From Planotetraspora kaengkrachanensis (GTDB lineage: Bacteria; Actinomycetota; Actinomycetes; Streptosporangiales; Streptosporangiaceae): DNA of 64,000 nucleotides. The notes under the pieces were generated by a model, which was given only the letters and a program-made list of their open reading frames with translations, ran no database searches and had not been told where the DNA came from. The DNA lies in the NCBI RefSeq assembly GCF_016862895.1, contig NZ_BONV01000024.1, positions 124,001-188,000 on the forward strand. The letters are read 5' to 3'. Numbering within the stretch: position 1 is the stretch's first letter; each line of letters begins with the position of its first letter. Positions 50,370 through 62,278 of this stretch are shown piece by piece. The position numbers were made by a program, and so were the translations under genes.

Positions 50370-51389
50370 ATGCGTGAGGTGGCGGTCATCGCGTTCGCCC
50401 AGACCCGGCACACCGACCACGACGAGGGACTGATCGACTTCGAGCTGATCCATCCGGTGATCCAGGAGGTCAAGGAACGGACCGGCCTGTCGAGGTTCGG
50501 GTTCACCTGCTCGGGAAGCTGCGACTACCTGGCCGGTGCGCCGTTCTCCTTCGTCTCCGCGCTGGACTCCCTCGGAGCCTGGCCGCCGATCTCGGAGAGC
50601 CACGTCGAGATGGACGCCGCGTGGGCCCTGTACGAAGCGTGGGTGCGGCTCCAGCACGGAGACGTGGACTCGGCGCTGGTCTACGGCTTCGGCAAGACGT
50701 CCATGGGCGACCTCAGGGAGATCATGACCCTGCAGCTCGACCCGTACTATCTGGCGCCGCTCGGTCTCGACCAGGTCTCCTTCGCCGCCCTGCAGGCGAA
50801 CGCGTACGGCGCCGGCCGGGCCGAACTCGACGAGATCGTACGGCGCAGCCGCGCGGACGGCCGGAGCAATCCCCACGCCCTCGACCTCGACGACCCCGCC
50901 GGGGATGAGTTCGAGGTAGCGCCGCTCAGGCCGTACGACGTGGCGCCGATCACCGACGGCGCCGCCGCGATCGTGCTGGCCGCGGGCGACCTCGCCAGGG
51001 AGCTGGCGGAACGTCCCGCCTGGATCATGGGCATCGCCCACCGGATCGAGCCCCACTACCTCGGCATGCGCGACCTCAGGCGCTCGCCGTCCACGGAGGC
51101 CGCCGGCCGGGCGGCGGGGGTCGGCAAGGGCCCGGTCGACGTCGCGGAGCTGCACGCCCAGTTCAGCCATGAGGAGCTCATCCTCCGCGAGGCGCTCGAG
51201 TTGCCGGCGGGCACGGTGGTCAACCCCTCGGGCGGAGCGCTGGCGGCCAACCCCGTCATGGCGACCGGGCTGATCCGCATCGGCGAGGCCGCGTCGCGGA
51301 TCCTCGACGGCGGCGCGGGCCGCACCGTCGCCCACGCCACGTCGGGGCCCTGTCTCCAGCACAACCTCGTCACCGTCCTGGAGGCGTGA
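50370..51389 (+). CDS. ltp4: SCP2-type thiolase, Ltp4-like
   Basis: A 339-residue thiolase-fold lipid-transfer-type protein. FTCSGSCDYLAG (residues 45-56) holds C47 and C51 in the region of the nucleophile loop, and the C-terminal half has VDVAELHAQFSHEELIL and the NPSGGALAANP glycine loop. In mycobacteria the Ltp4-Rv3521 pair lies in the KstR regulon for cholesterol side-chain breakdown. It would act with the OB-fold protein encoded 13 bp upstream. GAGGGGAGGAG precedes the ATG. Confidence 0.87.
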   Translation: MREVAVIAFAQTRHTDHDEGLIDFELIHPVIQEVKERTGLSRFGFTCSGSCDYLAGAPFSFVSALDSLGAWPPISESHVEMDAAWALYEAWVRLQHGDVDSALVYGFGKTSMGDLREIMTLQLDPYYLAPLGLDQVSFAALQANAYGAGRAELDEIVRRSRADGRSNPHALDLDDPAGDEFEVAPLRPYDVAPITDGAAAIVLAAGDLARELAERPAWIMGIAHRIEPHYLGMRDLRRSPSTEAAGRAAGVGKGPVDVAELHAQFSHEELILREALELPAGTVVNPSGGALAANPVMATGLIRIGEAASRILDGGAGRTVAHATSGPCLQHNLVTVLEA

Positions 51390-51432
51390 GCCCCCATGCC
51401 CCCCATGCCCCCGCCACCCCCCACCCCCTGCC

Positions 51433-51550
51433 GTGATCATGCACAGGTTCGTGATCAGGGCCGCCCACCTGCGAAAACCCCCGGCGTGATCATGCACAAG
51501 TTCGTGGATTCACGCCCCGAGCTGGGAAGTCGTCGATCGTGATCATGCAA
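51433..51550 (+). repeat. 53-bp-period intergenic repeat, array A (three forward units)
   Basis: GTGATCATGCAC begins at 51433 and 51486, and the variant ending AA at 51539: two exact 53-bp steps. Each core is followed by RGTTCG and preceded by a degenerate GCGAAnnC-type segment, so the whole 53 bp is a diverged repeat. The array fills the 174-bp gap between the two thiolase genes and ends 13 bp before the second one's GTG. No ORF or hairpin RNA explains it. Confidence 0.88.
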
Positions 51551-51563
51551 TCGAGGTGCTGTC

Positions 51564-52712
51564 GTGGGTAACCGTTGTGCCGTGATCGGCGTCGGCCAGA
51601 CTCGCTATCAGACCAAGCGGCGGGACGTCTCCATCGCCGGCCTGGTCAGGGAGGCCGCCCTCCGCGCGCTCGAGGACGCGGGGCTGACCTTCAAGGACAT
51701 CGACGCCGTCGTCATCGGCAAGGCCCCCGACCTGTTCGAGGGCGTGATGATGCCCGAGGCGTACCTCGCGGACGCGCTGGGCGCCGCGGGCAAACCGATG
51801 ACGCGCGTCCACACGGCTGGGTCGGTCGGCGGGTCGACGGCGCTGGTCGGCGCGTCGCTGATCCAGGGCGGCGTGCACGACCGCGTGCTGGTGGTCGCCT
51901 TCGAGAAGCAGTCGGAGTCGAACGCCACCTGGGCGCTGTCCACGCACCTGCCGTTCAGCGCCTCACTCGTCGTCGGCGCGGGCGGATACTTCGCGCCGCA
52001 CATCCGCGAGTACATGCGCAGGTCGGGCGCGCCCGACCACATCGGCACGCTGGTCGCGGTCAAGGACCGGCAGAACGCCCTGAAGAACCCCTACGCCCAC
52101 CTGAAGATCCCCGGCATCAACCGGCAAATGGTCGAGTCGACGCCGATGTTGTGGGAGCCGATCCGTTACCTGGAGACCTGCCCGTCGTCGGACGGCGCGT
52201 GCGCGATGGTGCTCGCCTCCGAGGACAAGGTGACCGGGACGCCCGCCTGGGTGCACGGCACCGCCATGCGGTCCGAGCCGATGGCGCGGGCCGATCGCGA
52301 CACGGTGAGCCCGCAGGCGGGCAAGGACTGCGCGGCCGACGTCTACCGCCAGGCCGGCATCACCGATCCGCGCAGGGAGATCGACGTCGCTGAGGTGTAC
52401 GTGCCCTTCTCCTGGTACGAGCCGATGTGGCTGGAGAACCTCGGCTTCGCCGCCGAGGGCGAGGGATGGAAGGTCACCGAGGCCGGCAGCACGGCGCTCG
52501 ACGGCGACATCCCGTGGAACGCCTCAGGCGGAGTGCTCTCCTCCAACCCCATCGGCGCCTCCGGCCTGATCCGGTTCGCGGAGGCGGCGCAGCAGGTGAG
52601 AGGCATGGCCGGTGAACATCAGGTCGACGGCGCCCGCACGGCGCTCGGCCACGCCTACGGCGGAGGGGCGCAATTCTTCGCCATGTGGATCGTCGGAGCG
52701 CACAAACCCTGA
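51564..52712 (+). CDS. ltp3: SCP2-type thiolase/aldolase, Ltp3-like
   Basis: A 382-residue thiolase-fold protein, close in length to mycobacterial Ltp3 (394). The region that carries the acyl-accepting cysteine in true thiolases (A-C-A/S-G) reads TAGSVGGST (84-92), without cysteine. It therefore cannot work as a normal thiolase but may be a retro-aldolase like Ltp2. IDVAEVYVPFSWYEPM and the C-terminal NASGGVLSSNPIGASGLIRFAE glycine loop are conserved. GTG 51564 follows array A. It belongs to the same run as the OB-fold protein, its likely partner. Confidence 0.87.
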   Translation: MGNRCAVIGVGQTRYQTKRRDVSIAGLVREAALRALEDAGLTFKDIDAVVIGKAPDLFEGVMMPEAYLADALGAAGKPMTRVHTAGSVGGSTALVGASLIQGGVHDRVLVVAFEKQSESNATWALSTHLPFSASLVVGAGGYFAPHIREYMRRSGAPDHIGTLVAVKDRQNALKNPYAHLKIPGINRQMVESTPMLWEPIRYLETCPSSDGACAMVLASEDKVTGTPAWVHGTAMRSEPMARADRDTVSPQAGKDCAADVYRQAGITDPRREIDVAEVYVPFSWYEPMWLENLGFAAEGEGWKVTEAGSTALDGDIPWNASGGVLSSNPIGASGLIRFAEAAQQVRGMAGEHQVDGARTALGHAYGGGAQFFAMWIVGAHKP

Positions 52713-52745
52713 TCGGTCAGACCCCCGGGAGAGAGGTCAACTCGT

Positions 52746-54335
52746 ATGGAGTTCAACCACGCCGACCTTTTCGAAGGGTTCGCGGACACGATCGGGGACC
52801 GGGTGGCCGTCGTCTGCGGCGACGCCCGTATGACGTATGCCGAACTCGACGCGCAGGCCAACCGGCTCGCCCACCACCTGGCAGCCCAGGGCGTACGGAG
52901 CGGGCAGCACGTCGGGATCCAGCTCTACAACGGGCTGGAGTACATCACCGCTCTGCTCGCCGCGCTGAAGATCCGGGCCGTGCCCGTCAACGTGAACTAC
53001 CGCTACGTCGAGGCGGAACTCGTCTACCTCTACCGCGACTCCGACATCGTGGCGCTGCTGTTCGACGTCGAGTTCGACGGCCGGGTCGCCGCCGCCGCAC
53101 AAGAGGCGCCGGCGTTGCGCCACCTCGTCGCCGTCGGCGGCGACTCCGCCGTCCCCGGCGCCGTGCCGTACGGCGAGGCGCTGGAAGCGCAACCGGCGAC
53201 GAGGGGCTTCGAACCGCGGACCGGCGAGGACATCTACATCATCTACACCGGCGGGACCACCGGCATGCCCAAGGGCGTGATGTGGCGGGTCGAGGACCTG
53301 TTCATGGCGTTCGGCGGCGGCAACCCGTACGGCCCGCCGCTGGAGACGCCGGAGGCGGTCGTCGAGCAGGCGCGCAACGCCGGCCCGATCGTCATGATGG
53401 CAGCGCCGCCGCTCATGCACGGCGCGGCGCAGATGGGGACGTTCCTGTGCTGGTGCATGGGCTCGACCATGGTCTACGTCCGCAAGTTCGATCCGGTCGC
53501 GGTGCTGCGGGCGATCGAACGCGAGAAGGTGCTGAGCATCAACATCACCGGCGACGCGATGGCGCGACCGCTGGCCGAGGAGATCGCCACCGGGGCGTAC
53601 GACCTGTCGTCGCTCGCCGTCGTCAGCTCGACCGGGGCGATCCTCAGCGGCACGGTCCGGGCGCGGCTCCAGGAACTGCTTCCCAACACGATGATCATGG
53701 ACAGTTTCGGTTCGACGGAGTCCGGCTACACCGCGTCCGGGGTCGCCGGCTCGTCTCCGGAGGCCGGTCTGAAGTACCAGCCCAAGGCCGATGCGGGCAT
53801 CGCCGTACTGGACGAGAAGCTCAGGCCCGTCGACCCGGGCTCGGGAGTCATGGGAATGGTCGCGAGGTCGGGGCGCATCGCCTTCGGCTACTACAACGAC
53901 CCGGACAAGACCGCGCGCACCTTCGTGACCGACGGCGACGGCGTCAAATGGCTGCTGTCGGGCGACATGGCCATGGTGGAGGAGGACGGGACGATCCAGA
54001 TCTTCGGCCGGGGCTCGCAGTGCATCAACACCGGCGGGGAGAAGGTCTTCCCCGAGGAGGTCGAGGCGGTGCTGAAGGGTCATCCTTCGGTGTTCGACGC
54101 CGTCGTCACCGGCATTCCGGACGACCGCTGGGGATCGCGGGTGGCGGCCGTGGTCCAGCCGTACGAGGGGACCGCTCCTACGTGGGAGGAGCTGGACGCC
54201 CACTGCCGCGGTTTGTTGTCGGGGTACAAGGTCCCGCGTACCTATGCGTTCGTGGAGGAGGTGCTCCGGTCGCCGGCGGGTAAAGCCGACTACCGATGGG
54301 CCAAGCAGGTGGCCCAATCAGCCGCCTCAACGTGA
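52746..54335 (+). CDS. fadD19: Acyl-CoA synthetase, FadD19-like
   Basis: A 529-residue adenylate-forming enzyme with P-loop YTGGTTGMPKG at 167-177, a MWRVEDLFMA segment like that of FadD17/FadD19 steroid side-chain synthetases, FGSTESGYTASG (A5) and DGTIQIFGRGSQCINTGGEKVFPEEVE. The catalytic lysine near the C-terminus is in SPAGKADYRWAK. It would activate the C26 or a shortened steroid side-chain acid as CoA ester before dehydrogenation, hydration and retro-aldol cleavage by the neighbouring enzymes. ATG 52746 lies 33 bp after the Ltp3-like gene, so it is the last gene of that operon. Repeat array B begins 17 bp after its stop. Confidence 0.9.
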   Translation: MEFNHADLFEGFADTIGDRVAVVCGDARMTYAELDAQANRLAHHLAAQGVRSGQHVGIQLYNGLEYITALLAALKIRAVPVNVNYRYVEAELVYLYRDSDIVALLFDVEFDGRVAAAAQEAPALRHLVAVGGDSAVPGAVPYGEALEAQPATRGFEPRTGEDIYIIYTGGTTGMPKGVMWRVEDLFMAFGGGNPYGPPLETPEAVVEQARNAGPIVMMAAPPLMHGAAQMGTFLCWCMGSTMVYVRKFDPVAVLRAIEREKVLSINITGDAMARPLAEEIATGAYDLSSLAVVSSTGAILSGTVRARLQELLPNTMIMDSFGSTESGYTASGVAGSSPEAGLKYQPKADAGIAVLDEKLRPVDPGSGVMGMVARSGRIAFGYYNDPDKTARTFVTDGDGVKWLLSGDMAMVEEDGTIQIFGRGSQCINTGGEKVFPEEVEAVLKGHPSVFDAVVTGIPDDRWGSRVAAVVQPYEGTAPTWEELDAHCRGLLSGYKVPRTYAFVEEVLRSPAGKADYRWAKQVAQSAAST

Positions 54336-54352
54336 CGCCCCACCCTCTGGGT

Positions 54353-54786
54353 GTGATCACGCACAGCCCCCAACCCCGCGCGTGATCATGCACAGGTTCG
54401 GCCGCATGGTCACTGACCAGTGAAACCTCGTGGCGTGATCATGCACGGGTTCGGTCACATGGTCACTAACCAGCGGAATCGCGTTTCGTGATCATGCGCG
54501 GTTTCGTGAATATGTGGCCCGGCCTGGGGTTTCGCCGTTCGTGATCATGCAGTGGTCGACGCGCATGATCACGACAAGGAAAAACCCAGGTCGTACGGCC
54601 GATCGGCGAGTCTGTGCATGATCACGCCCGGGGGCGGCGCAGGTCATGGCTGCACTGGCCGAACCCGTGCATGATCACGCACAGGGGGTGGCGCAGGTCG
54701 CGAGGGCTTTCCCCGAGCCTGTGCATGATCACGCGGGGTTGGGGGCCGTGCATGATCACCCCCATCGAAGGTGTGCGCACGATCAC
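54353..54786. repeat. 53-bp-period intergenic repeat, array B (forward then inverted units)
   Basis: Forward cores GTGATCAyGCrC start at 54353, 54382, 54435, 54488 and 54541; the last four are exactly 53 bp apart. Inverted cores GyGCAyGATCAC start at 54561, 54614, 54667 (53 bp steps), 54721 (54), 54748 and 54775 (27 each). The orientation flips near 54555. The array fills the whole 456-bp space between two convergent genes. Chance ORFs here translate to repeated MHDHA peptides and are not genes. Confidence 0.9.
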
Positions 54787-54791
54787 GCCCA

Positions 54792-55424
54792 TCAGGCGGC
54801 TTCGGAGGTGAGGGCGGCCACGGCGCCGAGGCCCAGGTAGACTACGCCGCTGCCCACGTCCAGGCGCCGCCGGGCACGGGCCGACCGGCGCAGCCTCCCG
54901 GCCAGGGCCGACGACAGCAGGGCGTAACCGCCGTCGCTGACCATGCCGAGCACGATCCAGATGAGCCCCAGCACCACGATCTGCGACGCCACGGGTCCCC
55001 GCGACGGGTCGGCGAACTGCGGCAGGAAGGCCAGGAAGAAGATCGCCGTCTTCGGGTTGAGCACGTTGACGACGAACCCCTCACCGAACAGCCGCGACCG
55101 GGACGCCCGTCGCATCTCGAACGGATCCTCGTCAACGGAGCGTTTGATCAGTTTGCGGACCCCGAGATAGACCAGATAAGCCGCACCCAGGTACTTCACG
55201 ATGGCGAACGCCGTCGCGGACGCCGCGAGCAGGGCGCTGATCCCGAGGGCGGCCGCGGTCACGTGCACCACCGAGCCGGCGTGCACTCCGAGCACGGATA
55301 CCAGCCCCGCCGCGCGGCCTTGGGCGACGCTGCGGGTCACGATGTAGACCACCGCGGGACCCGGCACCAGGAGAAGGGCGAGGGTCGCGGCTGCGAACAG
55401 GGCGAGCGTCGTCATGGGTGGCAT
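54792..55424 (-). CDS. LysE/RhtB-family exporter
   Basis: A 210-residue membrane protein with six hydrophobic helices. The N-terminal LLVPGPAVVYIVTRSVAQGRAAGL and the central GEGFVVNVLNPKTAIFFLAFLPQF match the LysE/RhtB amino-acid and metabolite exporter family. It probably exports an amino acid or related small molecule. Its 3' end abuts array B. The nearest neighbours upstream are a LysR regulator and a threonine dehydratase, so an amino-acid connection (threonine or homoserine, as for RhtB/RhtC) is plausible but not shown. Confidence 0.9.
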   Translation of the reverse strand: MPPMTTLALFAAATLALLLVPGPAVVYIVTRSVAQGRAAGLVSVLGVHAGSVVHVTAAALGISALLAASATAFAIVKYLGAAYLVYLGVRKLIKRSVDEDPFEMRRASRSRLFGEGFVVNVLNPKTAIFFLAFLPQFADPSRGPVASQIVVLGLIWIVLGMVSDGGYALLSSALAGRLRRSARARRRLDVGSGVVYLGLGAVAALTSEAA

Positions 55425-55481
55425 GTTCGTGATGGTACGAAGTGACCCCCCGCCGGGGCATCCCTATTTCCAGCCGCTCCC

Positions 55482-55553
55482 GCAGCCAAGCCGTACGCAG
55501 CCAAGCCGCCCACGCGGCCACCCCGTCCCGGCCGCCCACGTGCAGCCAAGCCG
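55482..55553. repeat. Three short direct repeats GCAGCCAAGCCG
   Basis: Copies at 55482, 55497 and 55542 (steps 15 and 45) lie in the 179-bp gap between the LysE exporter and the LysR gene. Nothing else is recognisable in that gap. Confidence 0.6.
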
Positions 55554-55603
55554 CCGCGCGGGCACCCGGCCGCGCAGAAACCCGCGCCGGTGAGCGCTCC
55601 GCT

Positions 55604-56482
55604 TCAGCCGTCCGCGAGGGCGGCGAGCAGCGCCGCCGTCGCCGGCGGATCCGGCGGTTCGCCGTACGTCGCCGCGAACACCCGCCGCGTCGACGCGGGG
55701 ATCTCGCTCACCTGGACGCCGGGATGCCGATGCGCCGACAACGCGAGTCGCGGCAGGACGGCCACGCCCAGACCCGCGGCCACCATGGCCTGCACCGCCA
55801 CGTAGTCGTCCGTGGTGAACGAGATGCGCGGCTCGAACCCGGAGCCGGAGCACAGGTCGAGCAGATGGGCGCGGCACCGGTCGCAGCCCGCGATCCAGCG
55901 GGACTCGGCGTGATCCCGCAGCGACCCGGACGGCGATCCGCCGGGTGTGACGAGGAGGCTCGGTTCGTCGAGAAGCGGTGTGATCCGAAGGCCGTCGACG
56001 TCCGGACCTCCGTGAGGAACGCCCGCCTGGCCGTACTGGAAGACCACCGCCACGTCCACGTCGCCGGCCCGCAACATGCGCAGCGCCTCGGGTGGTTCGG
56101 CCTCGGCCAGGCGCAGGTCCAGCCCCGGGTGGTCGTGCGCGAGCCGTACCGCGGCCTCGGGGACGAGGGTCCCGAGTGCGGACGGGAAGGCGGCCAGCCG
56201 CACCCGGCCTGCGCGCAGCCCGACGTGGGCCGCCAGCTCGGCCGAGGCGGACTCGATCCGCCCGAGGATCTCGGCGGCCCGTTCCGCCAGCAGCCGGCCC
56301 GCCTCGGTGAGCCGGATGCCGCGGCCCGCCCGCTGGACGAGCTTCGCGCCGGTCTCCGCCTCCAGCCGGGAGAGGTGGTGGCTGACCGAGGGCTGCGTGT
56401 AATTGAGCTCCCTTGCCGCCGCGGTGACCGACCCGGTTTTCGATATGGCGAGCAGCACCCGCAGCCGTACGACGTCGAGCAT
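55604..56482 (-). CDS. LysR-family regulator, divergent from threonine dehydratase
   Basis: A 292-residue LysR protein with N-terminal helix-turn-helix GSVTAAARELNYTQPSVSHHLSRLEAE (about 17-43) and effector domain (about 88-285). A LysR-type palindrome lies 12 bp upstream of its start in the divergent promoter. It therefore probably regulates itself and the dehydratase gene at 56538, with an amino acid as likely effector. The C-x2-C pair in CDRCRAHLLDLC (about 195) is unusual for the family and could respond to redox state. Confidence 0.9.
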   Translation of the reverse strand: MLDVVRLRVLLAISKTGSVTAAARELNYTQPSVSHHLSRLEAETGAKLVQRAGRGIRLTEAGRLLAERAAEILGRIESASAELAAHVGLRAGRVRLAAFPSALGTLVPEAAVRLAHDHPGLDLRLAEAEPPEALRMLRAGDVDVAVVFQYGQAGVPHGGPDVDGLRITPLLDEPSLLVTPGGSPSGSLRDHAESRWIAGCDRCRAHLLDLCSGSGFEPRISFTTDDYVAVQAMVAAGLGVAVLPRLALSAHRHPGVQVSEIPASTRRVFAATYGEPPDPPATAALLAALADG

Positions 56483-56493
56483 GCGCGCAATTT

Positions 56494-56516
56494 ATCAACG
56501 TCTTCTATCGGTTGAT
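56494..56516. promoter_or_regulatory. LysR-type operator (T-N11-A palindrome)
   Basis: ATCAAC-N11-GTTGAT is a perfect six-base inverted repeat with the 11-bp spacing typical of LysR binding sites. It is centred in the 55-bp gap between the LysR gene and the dehydratase gene. Confidence 0.8.
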
Positions 56517-56537
56517 GAGAAGACTTCAGTTGGACCT

Positions 56538-57515
56538 ATGCCACGGAGGAGGGCCACGCTGGAGTCCGTGACAGACATCCGTGATGTGCTCGAGGCCAGG
56601 CGGCTGATCGCCGGGCACCTGCCCGAGACGCCCATGTGGTCCTATCCGGTTCTCGACGCGATCGTGGGGGCACGCGTCCACGTCAAACACGAAAACGTGC
56701 AGCCGACGGGCGCCTTCAAGGTACGCGGCGGCATCAACCTGCTGGCCCGGATGCCCGATCGGGGACGGGGCGTCGTCGCGTACTCCACGGGCAACCACGC
56801 GCAGTCGGTGGCCTACGCCGCCCGGCTGTACGGCGTCGCCTGCTCGATCGTGATGCCGGAGAACCCCAATCCGGCCAAGGTCGCGGCCGTCGAGGCGCTC
56901 GGGGCGACGGTGACCGTCGCGGGCGCGACCATGGTCGAGGCGGCCGACCACGCTCGGGCGATGTCCGACGACCAGGGCAGACGCCTGATCAGCCCGGCCG
57001 ACGAGCCGGACATCATCGCCGGGGTGGCCACGCTCTACCTCGAGATGCTGGCGGCGCGGCCCGGTCTGGACGCCGTCTTCGTCCCCGTCGGCAGCGGCAC
57101 GGGCGCGGCCGCCGCGTGTCTCGTCGCCGATGCGCTCGCACCCCGCTGCCGGGTGATCGCCGTGCAGTCGGCCTCCGCGCCGGCCGCGCACGACTCCTGG
57201 GCGTCGAAGGAGCTCGTCACCCGCCCGTGCGAGACCGTCGTGGACGGCCTGGCGACCGGTTCCGCCTTCGAGACGCCCCAGGCGGTCATGCGGGACGGGT
57301 TGTCCGATTTCCTGCTGGTCGGCGACGACGACATCCGGCGGGCCCAGCGGATGCTCCTCACGCAGGCGCACACGCTGGCCGAGGGTGCCGGAGCCGCGGC
57401 GCTTGCCGGGCTGCTCGCCGTACGTGAGGAGTTCGCCGGTCGGGAGGTGGCCGTGGTCTGCACGGGGGCGAACGCAGGACCGGCCGAACTCGAGCGACTG
57501 CTGGCCGCCGCCTGA
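56538..57515 (+). CDS. Threonine/serine dehydratase (PLP-dependent)
   Basis: A 325-residue fold-type II PLP enzyme. The Schiff-base lysine is K61 in PTGAFKVRGG, the asparagine loop is STGNHAQS, and the phosphate-binding loop is VPVGSGTGAA (about 184-193). It lacks the C-terminal ACT-like regulatory domain of biosynthetic IlvA, so it resembles catabolic threonine dehydratase or serine racemase. It converts threonine to 2-oxobutyrate and ammonia, or serine to pyruvate. ATG 56538 and GTG 56568 are both possible starts, neither with a strong ribosome site. It is controlled in all likelihood by the divergent LysR protein. Confidence 0.87.
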   Translation: MPRRRATLESVTDIRDVLEARRLIAGHLPETPMWSYPVLDAIVGARVHVKHENVQPTGAFKVRGGINLLARMPDRGRGVVAYSTGNHAQSVAYAARLYGVACSIVMPENPNPAKVAAVEALGATVTVAGATMVEAADHARAMSDDQGRRLISPADEPDIIAGVATLYLEMLAARPGLDAVFVPVGSGTGAAAACLVADALAPRCRVIAVQSASAPAAHDSWASKELVTRPCETVVDGLATGSAFETPQAVMRDGLSDFLLVGDDDIRRAQRMLLTQAHTLAEGAGAAALAGLLAVREEFAGREVAVVCTGANAGPAELERLLAAA

Positions 57516-57525
57516 GCGGGGGAGG

Positions 57526-58329
57526 TCAGGAGGCCCGGCCGAGATCCCGGCGGGCGGCCTCCTCGACCTCGTGCAGGCTCTGCCGAGTCAGCTCCAGTTC
57601 GGAGACGAGGTCGTCCAGGTCGCGCCGCCCGTCGTCGGCCGAGGAGGCGGCGGTCATCGCCGACACCTCGACCGCCCGCGCGACCAGCCCCTCGAGGTCG
57701 ATCGCGCCGGACTCGAGCCTGGACAACACCCGTGCCCGGGTCGCCGACAAACGGTCGTGGATCTGTTGTTGCGACTTCAGCGACGCGATCGACCTGTCCA
57801 GGTCACCCGTTACGTCGCCCGCCATGTCTCCCTCAATGTCGCCCGCCACGTCGTCCCCTATGTCGGCCGGTGCCGACGCGCGGGCCCGCTCGAGCCGTGC
57901 CAGCTCCTCCCGCAGGAAGGCGGGGTCGAAGCGGCCGAGCGCCGCGCCGGTGACGGACGCCTGCCCGGCCAGCCGCCGCAACGTCGCGACCGTGTCGTCC
58001 ACCTGAGGGCGCATGGACGCGATCCGGTCGAGCAGGATCCGGCCCCGCATCGAGGCCGCCAGGTCGCCGAAGCCGCTCGCCGCACGCTCCGCACGGCGCA
58101 ACCACGCCTCCTCCGGGCTGCCCGCCGCGACCGGCGGCTCCTCCGGCCCGGTACGGCTCTCGCCCCCGGTCGACTGCCAGGCCGACGCGAACGACTTGAC
58201 CAGCCACACGGTGACGCCCACGACGGCGGCCCCGGCCGGGTGCACGTCGACGGCCCACGCCGCGCCGCCCGCGGTGGCGCCCAGGAGCAGTCCCCAGGGA
58301 TCGCGCAGTTCCTCGCTGAAGCGGGACAA
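57526..58329 (-). CDS. Membrane-associated coiled-coil protein, partner of the VWA gene
   Basis: A 267-residue protein with one or two hydrophobic segments near the N-terminus (about 12-48) and a long helical, acidic/basic alternating remainder with coiled-coil character. A short GDxx-repeat stretch (GDDVAGDIEGDMAGDVTGD, about 152-170) is embedded in it. I do not recognise a family beyond uncharacterised actinobacterial proteins next to VWA/substrate-binding genes. It follows the VWA gene after 15 bp and is surely co-transcribed. It could assemble around that membrane-anchored protein (phage-shock or toxic-anion-resistance-like helices are possible), but this is inference. Confidence 0.7.
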   Translation of the reverse strand: MSRFSEELRDPWGLLLGATAGGAAWAVDVHPAGAAVVGVTVWLVKSFASAWQSTGGESRTGPEEPPVAAGSPEEAWLRRAERAASGFGDLAASMRGRILLDRIASMRPQVDDTVATLRRLAGQASVTGAALGRFDPAFLREELARLERARASAPADIGDDVAGDIEGDMAGDVTGDLDRSIASLKSQQQIHDRLSATRARVLSRLESGAIDLEGLVARAVEVSAMTAASSADDGRRDLDDLVSELELTRQSLHEVEEAARRDLGRAS

Positions 58330-58344
58330 GGGGGGCTCCCGGGC

Positions 58345-60213
58345 TCAGAAGTTGGAGATCACGGCCGTGAACACCCGATCGATGCTTCCCGGTTCACGTG
58401 AGTCGTAGGCGGCGGCGTCGGTGGTCTGCGAAATCCGCTTGAGGACGTCCAGGTCGGCGTCCGCGCCGTACGCGATCGTGAACAGGCGGACGGTGTCCTG
58501 TCCTGCCTCCGTGTCCAGGTCGGGGAGGAGGTCGTCGAGGGAGATCGAGTTGTTGTCCTCGTTCTTGCCGTCGGTGAGCAGGACGACCGCGTTGATCGTG
58601 TCGTCGCTCCGCCGGCTCATCACGTTCTGGTAGGACGCAAGGGCGGTGTCGTGCAGGCCCGTGCCGCCGTTGGGGATCAGGTCGCCGATGCGGTCCGTCA
58701 GCTCGTTTTCGGCGATCTTCTTCAACGGGACCAGTTCGCGGTAGTCCTTGGCGCCGTCCTGGTTGAGGGAGAACGTCCACAGGCCGACCTTGTCGTTGGG
58801 CCCGAACTGCGAAAGCGCGTTGATCGCGGCCTGCTTGGCCAGGTCGAGCTTGCTCTTACCGGTGTCGGGGACGTCCGCGCCCATGGAGCCGGACGTGTCG
58901 ACGACCATCAGGACGTTGGCCGGCTTGCGCAGTTCGCCCCAGCTCTTGAGGATCTCGTCGAGCACCGCGGGAGCCGGGACGCTCAGCGTGGTGGCGGGCT
59001 GCGCGGGGTCGAGCCCGTTCTCCGCGGTGATCAGGTCGCCCGCCTTCCCGTCGAACGACCGGAAGGCGTATTTCGCGAACTCACGCCCGCCCTCGGACCG
59101 CAGGTACGTGAGGAAGTCGTCCGCCGTCGCCTTTTTGGCCGGGTCGAGCCCGGCCAGTTCGGCGTACGGATGGTCGGACAAGAGCGTGCCCTCGGAGGGA
59201 TAGATGGCCACGAGCGGGATCTTCGGCTTGGCGTGCTGCCCCAGGGTCTTCGGGTCACCCGACGGGTTGCCCTGGTTGTAGTCCCAGACCGACTTCTCCT
59301 CGATGGTCACGGCCGAGATGTACGACATCGCCGTGCCGGAGTCGTCCGCGCGCTGAAGATTCGACAGGAAGGTGAGGGAGATGTCGCCGTAGTGGACGAT
59401 CGACCGTTCCATGCCGCTGATGAACTTCCGTGTCTTCGCGTTCGCGACATCCTGCTTCGTCAGGTCTCCCGACAGCCCCGTGGCGGCGAAGTAGGCGCCG
59501 ATCGTGGCGTTCAGCCCGGACGTCGAGTAGTTCGGGTTCGTCTTGCCGAGGCGGAAGGGACCCCATTCCGGATGCCCGTACTTCGCCCAGCCCTTCGGGT
59601 CGTTGGCCAGATCGAGGATCTGTGTCCAGCCGATCTTCTTCGACGGCCATCCCAGCGCGTCGGCCATCGGCTCGGGCATGGCGATGACCAGGGGCGACGT
59701 CGCGATGGTGGGGTTGTCCGCCGGTACCGGGCTGGGGCGGTCGGTGCCCGCGACCCGCTGCTGGAGCAGGCTGACCCAGCCCGCGCTCGCGGGGGTCCAC
59801 ACGTCCGGCTTCAGGCCGTCCCTGCGGGTGTCCCAGCCGCGTGCGAGCGCCTGCATCGCGTCGCCGGACGCCTTGGAGGTCACGACCACCTCGGCGCAGC
59901 GCCCGCCGGCCTCGCGGGCGTTGTACGCGTCGGCGATCGTGCTCAGGACCGCCGCCTTCTCGCTCGAGGCCACGACGTTCAGCGTGACGCCGTCTCCGCC
60001 GCAGGCCGTCCGTCCGGTGCTCGAGCCCTCCGAACCCGATGAGCCTCCCGAACTCGCCGAGCCTCCGGCGTCCGTGCCGCTGAAGAGGACCCGCAGGCCG
60101 ACGATGAGAGCGCCGGCCACGATGATCGCGATGATGAAGGAAGCGGGGCCGCGGCGGCGCTTCTGTGCTGGGGGGTACACGCGTCCTCCATGGGGAGACG
60201 GGAGTGCAGGCAC
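58345..60213 (-). CDS. Membrane-anchored substrate-binding-like plus VWA-domain protein
   Basis: A 622-residue fusion. A membrane anchor (about 24-45) and Ser/Gly linker are followed by a type II periplasmic-binding-protein-like domain (about 72-400). That domain contains VTSKASGDAMQALARGW, KPDVWTPAS and the STSGLNATIGAYF segment of extracellular solute-binding proteins. A von Willebrand A domain (about 425-620) has the MIDAS motif DTSGSMG near 438, with the threonine in GGTGLHD and TDGKN completing the metal site. VWA domains bind protein partners through a divalent cation. It may sense a ligand outside the cell and relay it to the coiled-coil protein encoded downstream. Its upstream region is occupied by repeat array C. 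Confidence 0.85.
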   Translation of the reverse strand: MPALPSPHGGRVYPPAQKRRRGPASFIIAIIVAGALIVGLRVLFSGTDAGGSASSGGSSGSEGSSTGRTACGGDGVTLNVVASSEKAAVLSTIADAYNAREAGGRCAEVVVTSKASGDAMQALARGWDTRRDGLKPDVWTPASAGWVSLLQQRVAGTDRPSPVPADNPTIATSPLVIAMPEPMADALGWPSKKIGWTQILDLANDPKGWAKYGHPEWGPFRLGKTNPNYSTSGLNATIGAYFAATGLSGDLTKQDVANAKTRKFISGMERSIVHYGDISLTFLSNLQRADDSGTAMSYISAVTIEEKSVWDYNQGNPSGDPKTLGQHAKPKIPLVAIYPSEGTLLSDHPYAELAGLDPAKKATADDFLTYLRSEGGREFAKYAFRSFDGKAGDLITAENGLDPAQPATTLSVPAPAVLDEILKSWGELRKPANVLMVVDTSGSMGADVPDTGKSKLDLAKQAAINALSQFGPNDKVGLWTFSLNQDGAKDYRELVPLKKIAENELTDRIGDLIPNGGTGLHDTALASYQNVMSRRSDDTINAVVLLTDGKNEDNNSISLDDLLPDLDTEAGQDTVRLFTIAYGADADLDVLKRISQTTDAAAYDSREPGSIDRVFTAVISNF

Positions 60214-60285
60214 TTATCACGACGTATCGCGACCCACGTTAGTTTCCGAGCATCTCGTCCAGCTAGCGCACAAACGACCCTTGCC

Positions 60286-60655
60286 GTGATCATGCACGGA
60301 TTCGGTACGGGGGCTATTGAGCTGCGGCTTCGCCAACCGTGATCATGCACAACCTCGGAGAGTTAGCCCCTGACCTGCCCGTACGTCCATCGTGATCATG
60401 CACGAGTCGATCGCGTGGCAAGCGCGAAGGATGCATGATCGCGGAGAGCGAATCGCCTGGTCGGGGCCAGTCTCGGAGAAGCTGCGCATGATCACGAAAG
60501 TTGTTCGCGCTGGTGAGGGCATGGGTTCTCGAATCCGTGCATGATCACGGGCGGTGTTGCCGCAGGTGCGGTGCCGTTGTTCCCGTACCTGTGCATGATC
60601 ACGGCCGGGGGCGTCGCAGGTGGGACGCCCTCCGGCCGAGGGGGTGCATGATCAC
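60286..60655. repeat. 53-bp-period intergenic repeat, array C (forward then inverted units)
   Basis: Forward cores GTGATCATGCAC start at 60286, 60339 and 60392 (exact 53-bp steps). Inverted cores start at 60431 (ATGCATGATCGC), 60484, 60537 (53-bp steps), 60591 (54) and 60644 (53). As in array B the orientation flips once, near 60415. The array lies between the start of the VWA gene and the end of the M20 peptidase gene, both on the minus strand. Confidence 0.9.
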
Positions 60656-60758
60656 CCCAAGGTTCTGCTCACCCCAAGGTTCTGCTCACCCCCGGGGTTC
60701 TGTTCACCCCCGGGGTTCTGTTCGCCCTGGGGTTCTGTTCACCCCAAAGGTTGAGGTC
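60654..60758. repeat. Tandem 17-18-bp repeat adjoining array C
   Basis: Six consecutive units: ACCCCAAGGTTCTGCTC (60654 and 60671), ACCCCCGGGGTTCTGTTC (60688 and 60706), GCCCTGGGGTTCTGTTC (60724) and a diverged last unit from 60741. The tract ends at the stop codon of the peptidase gene (60757-60759). It starts inside the last inverted core of array C. Confidence 0.9.
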
Positions 60759-62097
60759 AGGGGTGGGTGTAGGTGGACAGGAAGAGGGCTTCGGCGGTGA
60801 TGATGCGGCGGAGTTCGCCGAGGATCACTCGCTCGTTCGGGGCGTGGATGGAGGCGTCCTCGTCCTCGACCCCGTAGAGCAGGATCTCCGCCTGCGGGTG
60901 CAGGGTGGCCAGCTTCGCGACCAGCGGGATCGACCCGCCCTGGCCGACCTCGCGCGGCGCGCGGCCGAAGGCGTGCTCCATCGCCTTCTCGATCGCCGCC
61001 CGCGCCGGACCGCCCTCGGACGCGCGGAAGCCGGAGCCGGTGACCGTGTCGTCGAACGACACCTGGACGCCCCAGGGCGCGTTCTCCGCGAGGAAGGCGG
61101 ACACGGTCTTCAGCGCCGTCGCGGCGTCGCCCGACGGAGGGATGCGGATCGTGACGCGGGCCCGCGCCACAGCCTGGACCGCGTTGATCGCGCCGGACAC
61201 GCTGGGCACGTCGAGCCCCGTCACAGTGATGGCGTACGACGCCCAGACCCGGTCGGCGATCGATCCGGAGCCGACAAGCGAGACGCCGTCGAGAACGCCC
61301 GCCGTCGCCCGGAACTCCTTCTCCGAGGAGCTCTCGCCGGGGAAGACGCCCCGCTCCAGGCCGGGCACCCGGACGTCGCCGTTGTCGTCGTGCATGGCGG
61401 TCAGCATGCGCATCAGCGCGGACAGGGCGTCCGGGGCCGCGCCGCCGAACGACCCACTGTGTACGGCGTCGCCGAGTGACCGCACCTCGACCGTGAACGC
61501 GGCCATGCCGCGCAGCATGGTCGTCAGCGCCGGGTCGCCCACCTTCGGGTTGCCGACATCGCCGATGACCATGGCGTCGGCGTGCACCAGTTCTGGACGG
61601 GCCTCCACGAGCGACTCGAGTCGTTCGCCGGCGTACTCCTCCTGACCCTCGACGATGACCTTCAGGCCGACGGGGAAGTCGCCCTGGAAGACGCGCAACG
61701 CCGCGATGTGGGCGATCAGGCCGCCCTTGTCGTCGGCGGCGCCCCTGCCGTACATCGCGTCGCCGATCACGGTCGGCTCGAACGGCGGGGTACGCCACAG
61801 GGCGACGTCGCCGGAGGGCTGCACGTCGTAGTGGGCGTACAGCAGCACGGTCGGGGCGCCGGGCGGTGCGGGGGCCGTGGCGTAGACGGCGGGGAAGCTG
61901 CCCTCGACGGGGATCAGTTCGACGTGCGGGAGGCCCACCGAACGCAGCAGGTCCGCGACGGCCGCCGCGGCCTCGTGGACCGGCGCCTCCGGATGACCGG
62001 GGAACGCGACGGACGGGATCGACACGAGCTTCGTGAGGTCCTCGATCGCCTGCGGCATTCCCGCCTCGACGGCTCCTTCGATCTCCGCAGGTGTCAC
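60757..62097 (-). CDS. M20-family metallopeptidase (dipeptidase)
   Basis: A 446-residue zinc aminopeptidase/dipeptidase. YAHYDVQP holds the first metal histidine (H89), YGRGAADDKGG the bridging aspartate (122/123) and GQEEYAG the catalytic glutamate pair. The dimerisation domain and a final histidine in SIHAPNER complete the set. It cleaves short peptides such as Xaa-Xaa dipeptides in the cytosol. GTG 62097 was chosen for a GGAG eight bases upstream; the longer frame to 62217 is low in similarity. The stop codon is directly followed by the 17-18-bp tandem repeats. Confidence 0.9.
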   Translation of the reverse strand: MTPAEIEGAVEAGMPQAIEDLTKLVSIPSVAFPGHPEAPVHEAAAAVADLLRSVGLPHVELIPVEGSFPAVYATAPAPPGAPTVLLYAHYDVQPSGDVALWRTPPFEPTVIGDAMYGRGAADDKGGLIAHIAALRVFQGDFPVGLKVIVEGQEEYAGERLESLVEARPELVHADAMVIGDVGNPKVGDPALTTMLRGMAAFTVEVRSLGDAVHSGSFGGAAPDALSALMRMLTAMHDDNGDVRVPGLERGVFPGESSSEKEFRATAGVLDGVSLVGSGSIADRVWASYAITVTGLDVPSVSGAINAVQAVARARVTIRIPPSGDAATALKTVSAFLAENAPWGVQVSFDDTVTGSGFRASEGGPARAAIEKAMEHAFGRAPREVGQGGSIPLVAKLATLHPQAEILLYGVEDEDASIHAPNERVILGELRRIITAEALFLSTYTHP

Positions 62098-62278
62098 GGC
62101 GATTTCTCCAGAATGTAGTGATTTAGGGCCTGCTGGGCCGTTGGGTCTGCCCATTGCACCACATCCGCAGGTCGGGGGCCGCCGCGCAGGCGGCTGGATC
62201 GGAGAATCAAGGCTCACGGATTTCGTTGTGGTTACATGTCGATATCGCGGATTCCGAACTTCTTGGATACTGCAACCA

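Follow-up and report, generated by a model that had tools for sequence, protein, structure and literature searches.

Short repeats scattered through the intergenic gaps of bacterial chromosomes belong to several described systems. REP/BIME and REPIN repeats are associated with RAYT transposases; they comprise many short intergenic units, occur as inverted pairs and clusters, and lie mostly in unidirectional and convergent gaps close to gene 3' ends (PMC3733652). That paper lists GTAG repeats in Proteobacteria, Cyanobacteria, Chloroflexi and the PVC group, and the word Actinobacteria was not found in its text; three Actinomycetota genomes for which a 2025 survey tool counts REPs (PMC12306157) do not include Planotetraspora. 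DNA uptake sequences (DUS) of Neisseriaceae combine an invariant core with lineage dialects, are present in many copies, are common inside genes and form inverted pairs at terminators (PMC3630211). MIRU-VNTR repeats of mycobacteria are 40-100-bp repeats in intergenic gaps of actinobacteria, with 41 locations in one genome, and at one locus a long repeat-filled gap in some species corresponds to a gap of a few bases in others (PMC2734929). A unit length of 53 bp is common among MIRUs, and the repeats are direct only, as far as we are aware. In addition, a Streptomyces coelicolor fragment bound by ArgR in band shifts (SCO5864) has an assigned ARG box that holds the exact 12-mer considered here (PMC5839063, Table 1).

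In this study, a family of intergenic repeats in the soil actinobacterium Planotetraspora kaengkrachanensis (Streptosporangiaceae) was investigated, starting from a window of 64,000 nucleotides (contig NZ_BONV01000024.1, positions 124,001 to 188,000). The initial annotation had described at least 22 copies of a 12-bp core, or its reverse complement, at three intergenic sites with a period of 53 bp. This observation was confirmed. With up to 2 mismatches allowed, 22 cores lie at the three sites (51433-51550, 54353-54786 and 60286-60655), not counting one match at 54671 that overlaps another on the opposite strand. The whole window has 30 matches against 3.8 +/- 1.9 in shuffled sequences, and 0 of 100 shuffles reached 30. 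Twelve same-strand steps, rather than the 13 claimed initially, are exactly 53 bp; two are 54 bp and three are 27-29 bp, as claimed, and the two remaining steps (20 and 39 bp) are the centres where + cores turn to - cores. The flanking motifs described initially, a following RGGTTCGG and a preceding CTGCGRAnTCGCC-like stretch, were also right. It had not been stressed that the two arms of an array face each other, nor that the first site has one arm only. The features of the window are as follows:

50370..51389 (+): flanking gene left of array 1, thiolase-like on visual inspection
51433..51550 (+): array 1, a single + arm of three cores (51433, 51486, 51539), steps 53/53, between two + strand genes
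51564..52712 (+): flanking gene right of array 1, thiolase-like on visual inspection; start uncertain (51564 or 51582)
52746..54335 (+): flanking gene left of array 2, AMP-dependent synthetase-like on visual inspection
54353..54552 (+): array 2, + arm of five cores (54353, 54382, 54435, 54488, 54541), steps 29/53/53/53, starting 17 bp after the stop of the left gene
54435..54487 (+): example of one full 53-bp unit, with core at 1-12, extension at 13-20 and second block (CTAACCAGCG here, consensus CYGACCTGCG) at 32-41
54553..54560 (no strand): centre of array 2, 8 bp between facing cores
54561..54786 (-): array 2, - arm of six cores (54561, 54614, 54667, 54721, 54748, 54775), steps 53/53/54/27/27, ending 5 bp before the stop of the - strand gene
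54792..55424 (-): flanking gene right of array 2, convergent, LysE-like exporter on visual inspection
58345..60213 (-): flanking gene left of array 3, with the array at its 5' side; start uncertain (60213 or 60180)
60286..60403 (+): array 3, + arm of three cores (60286, 60339, 60392), steps 53/53
60404..60430 (no strand): centre of array 3, 27 bp between facing cores
60431..60655 (-): array 3, - arm of five cores (60431, 60484, 60537, 60591, 60644), steps 53/53/54/53
60757..62217 (-): flanking gene right of array 3, M20 peptidase-like on visual inspection; start uncertain

A genome-wide scan was then performed. An absence of excess 53-bp spacing or of intergenic location, or identity with a catalogued family, had been named in advance as grounds for rejecting the observation. 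None of these occurred in the sequences and texts that were searched. The own genome (G000; 8.77 Mb) has 652 exact copies of GTGATCATGCAC and 0 copies of the reversed control. In 464 kb of this genome, 70 of 70 exact cores and 24 of 26 one-mismatch cores were intergenic, defined as not more than 30 bp inside a called gene. Among same-strand steps up to 70 bp, 48 of 54 in 400 kb of contig C1 are exactly 53 bp, as are 98 of 104 steps at Planotetraspora mira loci and 119 of 127 at Planotetraspora silvatica loci. Neighbours of opposite strand face each other 35 times and turn away once over the five Planotetraspora sets. Arrays are in excess between convergent genes, occupying 7 of 67 convergent gaps against 10 of 310 others in G000 (p = 0.018), and 9 of 46 against 13 of 299 in another genome, G093 (p = 0.0008), where 2 of 58 cores in 400 kb were genic. 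The absence of arrays from 66 divergent gaps in G000 (p = 0.052) looked like avoidance of promoters, but 10 of 52 arrays at P. mira, P. silvatica and P. phitsanulokensis loci lie between divergent genes, and this claim was therefore dropped.

Each unit is composite and comprises the core, an extension (RGGTTCG) and a second block (CYGACCTGCG), amounting to about 52 bits. The consensus of 308 distinct units is GTGATCATGCACAGGTTCGgg.a.a.gccc.CtGACCTGCgc..AC.Cc...C. A ten-base periodicity of information within the unit was not outstanding and is not claimed. Among these units the strongest co-variation is between neighbouring positions, and none of the 30 strongest pairs joins the extension with the second block, although the two blocks look complementary; an RNA stem within the unit is thus not supported. 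Weak distant pairs, such as 36-47, 31-49 and 15-47, are in that list and are unexplained. Inner spacers fold close to shuffled sequences (mean z -0.4), and the fold z-scores of 35 centres and 44 arm ends do not differ from those of 120 of 302 inner spacers (p = 0.19 and 0.15, respectively), although some centres hold strong hairpins.

Comparison with the sister species was used to examine how the arrays change. At three to five orthologous arrays per species pair, cores are 98.5-100% identical, whereas spacers fall to 33-79% and flanks are 84-96.5% identical. Spacer identity among G000 and the sister species G003 and G004 was reached by 0 of 2000 random-unit pairings in each of the three pairs, so these units are inherited in place. 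One sister species, G001, has 691 copies spelled GTGATCATGCAG...TTCG; this GTGATCATGCAGnnnTTCG spelling occurs 8, 7, 4 and 6 times in G000, G003, G002 and G004, respectively, which suggests that something in trans reads the extension. However, spacer identity between G001 and the others is at the random level, and the spelling difference may reflect replacement of units rather than in-place selection. G002 (P. phitsanulokensis) has lost or nearly lost the arrays at three of three loci where both flanks were aligned, retaining 18 bp without a core, or one + and one - core, so single arrays are dispensable.

The 10-bp core GTGATCATGC recurs in other genera and in three other families with other extensions and spacings. 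Facing pairs were found in 36 of 250 genomes of the family, and tandem cores at gaps of 10-40 bp in 6 of 394 genomes of the class. Among other genomes carrying the core, G054 has 41-bp arrays with core and second block, G101 has 53/52-bp arrays, G225 and G159 have 53-bp steps, and G053 and G131 have alternating pairs. The array-rich genomes are G000, G001, G003, G004, G101, G028, G054, G093 and G341; no phylogenetic profile of protein families over these genomes against array-free relatives was made. The other families have irregular spacing (22-49 bp in the listed matches, with a search pattern that allowed 20-50 bp) and, on visual inspection, no second block. Single sites in sparse genera (after gcvH, panB and one small gene, named on visual inspection) did not point to a binding-protein gene, although the perfect-match search that found them is biased to conserved cores.

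We tentatively favour the reading that the arrays are clusters of recognition sites for a trans-acting, sequence-specific DNA-binding protein that co-evolves with its sites, though our confidence falls short of even and the protein was not found. In this view, each 53-bp unit offers a near-palindromic core (GTGATCATGC), a lineage-specific extension and a second block, so that one complex, or two proteins, would contact the DNA at fixed positions about five helical turns apart, and rows of units would form two facing arms that close on a centre, often in the gaps after gene ends. The bound protein may build a nucleoprotein block that insulates neighbouring, often convergent, transcription units or marks chromosome domains. 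Our data demonstrate the copy number, spacing, arm geometry, intergenic position, conservation of the core at orthologous arrays, species-wide spelling difference and recurrence of the core across families; that the reader is a protein, that it acts on double-stranded DNA and that it insulates are inferences, binding was not tested and silencing was not shown. The occurrence of arrays between divergent genes fits insulation of convergent genes poorly, and arms lie 3' of a co-oriented gene in only 72 of 110 cases. The initial interpretation, which proposed regularly spaced protein-binding sites on one face of the helix (for chromosome organisation, silencing or anti-silencing) or a spreading selfish repeat, was partly supported. 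Regularly spaced binding sites remain the best supported reading, given the per-site conservation of the core, the fixed spacing, the composite two-block unit, the lack of any sign of pairing covariation between the two blocks and the species-wide spelling difference, and the helical argument holds for 53 bp and roughly for the 41-bp arrays of G054, but the irregular spacing in other families indicates that phasing is not a general feature. A passively decaying selfish repeat, such as a MITE or insertion-sequence remnant, is contradicted, because its parts should decay alike whereas cores stay intact while spacers drift.

Three other explanations are less likely than this reading but remain rivals. 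Uptake-sequence-like drive, in which a DNA-uptake or transfer receptor prefers kin DNA by the core plus extension and recombination keeps copies intact, would account for the conserved core, the hundreds of copies, the inverted pairs in intergenic gaps and a species with a different dialect in most copies, since dialects would follow the receptor as in Neisseriaceae. It is considered unlikely, because 0 of 70 exact cores in 464 kb lie in genes, where DUS are common, and because we found no description of strict 53-bp composite units and long arrays for DUS in PMC3630211; competence genes were not examined and uptake in transformation was not measured. A REP/BIME- or MITE-like mobile family, spread in lineage-specific versions by a recombinase that reads GTGATCATGC and left by selection only in intergenic copies, is equally unlikely. 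The patchy distribution with variable copy number, the lineage-specific inner sequences, the position near gene 3' ends and the alternating pairs in G053 and G131 agree with it, and the arrays share with REP/BIME repeats the intergenic position and the excess between convergent genes. In contrast, the Y1 transposase (PF01797) is absent from G000, G002, G003 and G004 and was found in 2 of 13 genomes tested, G001 and G130, so a RAYT/REPIN origin was rejected for four of the five Planotetraspora species; the unit consensus has neither a GTAG/CGTC-tagged hairpin nor a covarying stem, and cores are preserved while spacers decay. No target duplication was seen by eye at the three G002 loci that lack a full array, but these are probably deletions and the observation does not decide whether insertion took place. 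Transposon bracketing was also considered; a few arms about 1-2.2 kb apart enclose ordinary genes, and no transposase was recognised by eye.

An RNA-level 3'-end signal, namely a terminator or 3'-UTR element read in the transcript, is the least likely of the three. The 72 arms that follow a co-oriented gene begin at a median of 15 bp after the stop, and in 18 of these 72 the first core itself supplies the TGA stop, but 38 of 110 arms are not in sense at a 3' end. Inner-stem pairing of facing pairs was mixed on few hairpins per group: above the re-dealt control in seven sparse hairpins of groups g37/g100 (0 of 500 re-deals reach it), below the control in ten facing pairs of G101 (499 of 500 re-deals reach it), and in between elsewhere. 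The arrays between divergent genes, the lack of pairing covariation between the two blocks among the 30 strongest pairs and the ordinary folding of the centres also weigh against this reading. A search of window positions 51300-60800 against Rfam returned no match above the gathering score, the best being 22.4 bits against a gathering score of 50. ArgR was examined as a candidate reader and rejected as a dedicated one. The core has one TGCAT-type half rather than two such half-sites as at argC, and array cores score 8.9 on average (range 0.1-17.6) on our matrix, against 17.0-19.3 for the best argC-region boxes of three Planotetraspora genomes; single cores reach 17.6 in context, and weak binding thus remains possible. 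ArgR is present in 6 of 6 genomes tested, all chosen among array-bearing genomes, and its presence alone says nothing about the patchy arrays.

The initial annotation knew of no described element with these features. Searches of the open-access literature for the 12-mer, and for the 10-mer in both directions, showed no paper on a repeat family in the titles and abstract openings listed, and searches on intergenic repeats, MIRU, REPs, BIMEs and DUS listed none that names this repeat. The arrays differ from REP/BIME repeats in their strict 53-bp composite units in facing arms, and from DUS in their phased arrays with a second motif and the lack of exact genic copies in 464 kb. Relative to MIRUs, with which no sequence comparison was made, the present repeats have facing arms, hundreds of units and a conserved core with diverged spacers. 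It is possible, though doubtful on present evidence, that they represent a previously undescribed class of chromosomal addressing element of Actinomycetes, in which a 10-bp word kept across families is read by a dedicated protein whose second specificity, the extension, drifts so that each lineage writes its own dialect genome-wide; in some Streptosporangiaceae the word would be built into facing, helically phased arrays that organise or insulate the chromosome between genes.

The sites are abundant and precisely defined. If they are uptake words or a new mobile repeat, that too would be new for this class as far as our searches reach. If a protein reads them, it is a large unrecognised chromosome or gene-boundary system of Actinomycetes, and the dialect difference between sister species would give a natural experiment in how a regulator and hundreds of its sites change together.

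In the window, 22 cores (up to 2 mismatches, with one overlapping opposite-strand match at 54671 not counted) were found at the three intergenic sites named in the initial annotation, and 30 matches were found in total against a shuffle mean of 3.8 (0 of 100 shuffles reached 30). Of the steps between neighbours within an arm, 12 were 53 bp, two were 54 bp and three were 27–29 bp by our count, whereas the initial annotation had given 13 steps of 53 bp. Apart from this difference, the observation of a 12-bp core recurring at a 53-bp period was confirmed. At two of the three sites, + cores were followed by − cores, so that two arms face each other. A second, unrelated tandem repeat (17 bp, TCACCCCAAGGTTCTGT, 5.8 copies) begins directly at the outer end of the third array (window 60652–60752).

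The core was then searched at genome scale, as the initial annotation had proposed for checking its claim. The window lies in contig C24 of an 8.77-Mb genome (P. kaengkrachanensis, G000), which holds 652 exact 12-mers (320 forward and 332 reverse) and no copy of the reversed control. In a search of 100 genomes, the five genomes of the genus had 165–698 copies; of the other 95, G053 (Actinomadura sp. HBU206391) had 31, G054 had 37 and the remaining 93 had 0 to 7. Five species of Planotetraspora are named in PMC11431748, and the genomes of the other four are referred to here as G001 (P. thailandica, a name that is inferred), G002 (P. phitsanulokensis), G003 (P. mira) and G004 (P. silvatica). A non-exhaustive scan of named genomes returned mainly P. 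mira, P. silvatica, P. phitsanulokensis and P. thailandica, plus scattered single matches in other phyla.

An absence of excess 53-bp spacing had been stated in advance as an outcome that would refute the observation, and this was not what we found. Among same-strand steps up to 70 bp, exactly 53 bp was found in 48 of 54 in 400 kb of contig C1 of G000, 11 of 14 in the window (exact 10-bp cores only), 98 of 104 in P. mira loci, 119 of 127 in P. silvatica loci and 8 of 9 in P. phitsanulokensis loci; the last three sets were loci drawn by the search pattern and are therefore array-centred. Over these five sets, neighbours of opposite strand within 170 bp face each other 35 times and turn away once. 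In G053, the same core is laid out as alternating + and − pairs, often about 60 and 28 bp apart, in a REPIN-like layout (loci L173, L177 and L179).

Intergenic location, the other property on which the claim had been made to depend, was examined in 464 kb of G000 (C1 plus window) with genes called in this study. A core was counted as genic if it lay more than 30 bp inside a called gene; 70 of 70 exact cores and 24 of 26 one-mismatch cores were intergenic. Cores occupied 7 of 67 convergent, 10 of 244 tandem and 0 of 66 divergent gaps, with p = 0.018 for the convergent excess and p = 0.052 for the divergent lack. In array-centred loci of three sister species, the split was 17 convergent, 25 tandem and 10 divergent of 52, so divergent gaps are not excluded. 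Of 110 arms with both neighbours called (13 edge cases were dropped), 72 follow a co-oriented gene at a median of 15 bp after its stop, and in 18 of these 72 the TGA inside the first core is the stop codon. The other 38 lie at the 5′ side of a gene, at a median of 129 bp. Facing arms about 1–2.2 kb apart enclose ordinary genes at loci L060, L086, L126, L205 and L206 (a translation-GTPase-like gene in L060, by visual inspection), which could matter for mobilisation or insulation.

The 308 distinct full units gave the consensus GTGATCATGCACAGGTTCGgg.a.a.gccc.CtGACCTGCgc..AC.Cc...C, which holds about 52 bits over a 70% GC background. The strongest mutual information was between neighbouring positions. 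Weaker distant pairs were detected (36–47, 31–49 and 15–47), but none of the 30 strongest pairs links the extension with the second block, although the two look complementary. This argues against an RNA stem in the unit and for direct reading of DNA.

To examine conservation at orthologous arrays, G000, G003 and G004 were aligned at five loci (three on C1 and two in the window), and G001 was added at the three loci for which a G001 locus with both flanks was obtained. Core identity was 98.5–100% in all six species pairs, whereas identity was 33–79% in spacers and 84–96.5% in flanks. Spacer identity among G000, G003 and G004 (20, 22 and 25 units) was reached by 0 of 2000 random-unit pairings in each pair; between G001 and the others (12, 9 and 11 units), it was reached by 1579, 552 and 180 of 2000. 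Cores were aligned by MAFFT, which favours matching cores, but the rows of intact cores seen in each species do not depend on that alignment. Thus, arrays are old and inherited in place in three species, and the cores are under selection or drive.

On most flanks, G002 is the closest to G000, although at C1:34005 the right flank of G003 and G004 is closer. The following was observed in G002:
C1:34005: 18 bp between the aligned flanks and no core.
C1:281979: one + and one − core.
Window 54353: one + and one − core.
C1:28555: flank matches in opposite orientation 37 bp apart; this locus was not analysed, nor was window 60286 in G002.
At C1:281979 in G004 and G003 (loci L297 and L298), the gene seems by visual inspection to run on to the TGA of the first core, while G002, with only one core pair left, stops earlier. 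G002 still holds 231 exact 12-mers. Since G001, the most diverged by flank identity, has arrays at its three aligned loci, loss in G002 is the simpler reading.

A dialect difference was detected within the genus. GTGATCATGCAGnnnTTCG occurs 691 times in G001 and 8, 7, 4 and 6 times in G000, G003, G002 and G004, respectively, while GTGATCATGCAC occurs 165 times in G001 and 231–698 times in the others. Either a reader changed its preference and hundreds of sites followed, or units were replaced in bulk, and the random-unit pairings do not separate these two possibilities. In nine aligned G001 units, the core and TTCG are kept and the second block is recognisable.

Beyond the genus, facing pairs of the 10-bp core GTGATCATGC (gap 4–34) occur in 36 of 250 genomes of the family, in 15 of 68 genera. 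G101, a genome of another genus, has 21 steps of 53 and 9 of 52 among 35; the genomes G225/G159 have 3 of 3 at 53; and G054 has 15 of 16 at 41, with the second block in the opposite sense by visual inspection. Some genomes with a single facing pair hold it at the same gene end, namely, after gcvH in the five genomes of group g6 with a match (loci L271–L275), and after panB in three of the four loci examined in group g52 (among them L185–L187); these gene names were assigned by visual inspection. In the class, 6 of 394 genomes have cores in tandem at 10–40 bp gaps: G093 (146 matches), G341 (94), G091 (32), G000 (29), G488 (20) and G400 (13); apart from G000, they belong to three other families. 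Extensions differ by lineage (AATCCCGCCACC in G093, ACGTTCGCCCC in G400 and AGATCCTGG in G341), and the listed spacings there vary from 22 to 49 bp. In 400 kb of G093, 56 of 58 cores are intergenic and convergent gaps are enriched (9 of 46 against 13 of 299, p = 0.0008), with 2 of 47 divergent gaps occupied.

Candidates for the factor that reads the cores were also examined, and the reader was not identified. The Y1 transposase family is missing in four of five Planotetraspora genomes and present in 2 of 13 genomes tested. One published lead is ArgR, which binds an S. coelicolor fragment whose assigned ARG box holds the exact 12-mer (PMC5839063), and ArgR is present in 6 of 6 genomes tested. 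On a matrix built from 31 of the 44 boxes in the table of that study, the best argC-region boxes scored 17.0–19.3 in three Planotetraspora genomes, 12.4 in G101, 17.1 in G093 and 19.8 in G400, whereas 74 array cores scored 8.9 on average, with a range of 0.1–17.6. We therefore reject ArgR as the dedicated reader, though weak binding is possible. Cores sit just 3′ of argR in G000, G002 and G101 (L338:4301–4363, L340:11120–11235 and L343:5644–5653), but no exact core lies in the G001 stretch examined around argR; this is possibly an old shared position.

Identity with a catalogued repeat family had likewise been named as grounds for refutation, and none was found in the sources searched. REP/BIME repeats share intergenic position, inverted pairs and 3′ preference (PMC3733652) but differ in unit structure and transposase. 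DUS share core plus dialect and inverted pairs (PMC3630211) but are common in genes. MIRUs share repeats in intergenic gaps of actinobacteria (PMC2734929). A search of window 51300–60800 against Rfam returned nothing above threshold. The interpretation in the initial annotation, which suggested regularly spaced protein-binding sites or a spreading selfish repeat, was partly supported. Our analysis establishes a real, conserved repeat system that is undescribed in the literature searched; because its function is not shown, we place it within the broad group of dispersed intergenic repeats. A lineage-dialect addressing system with a dedicated protein is not excluded.
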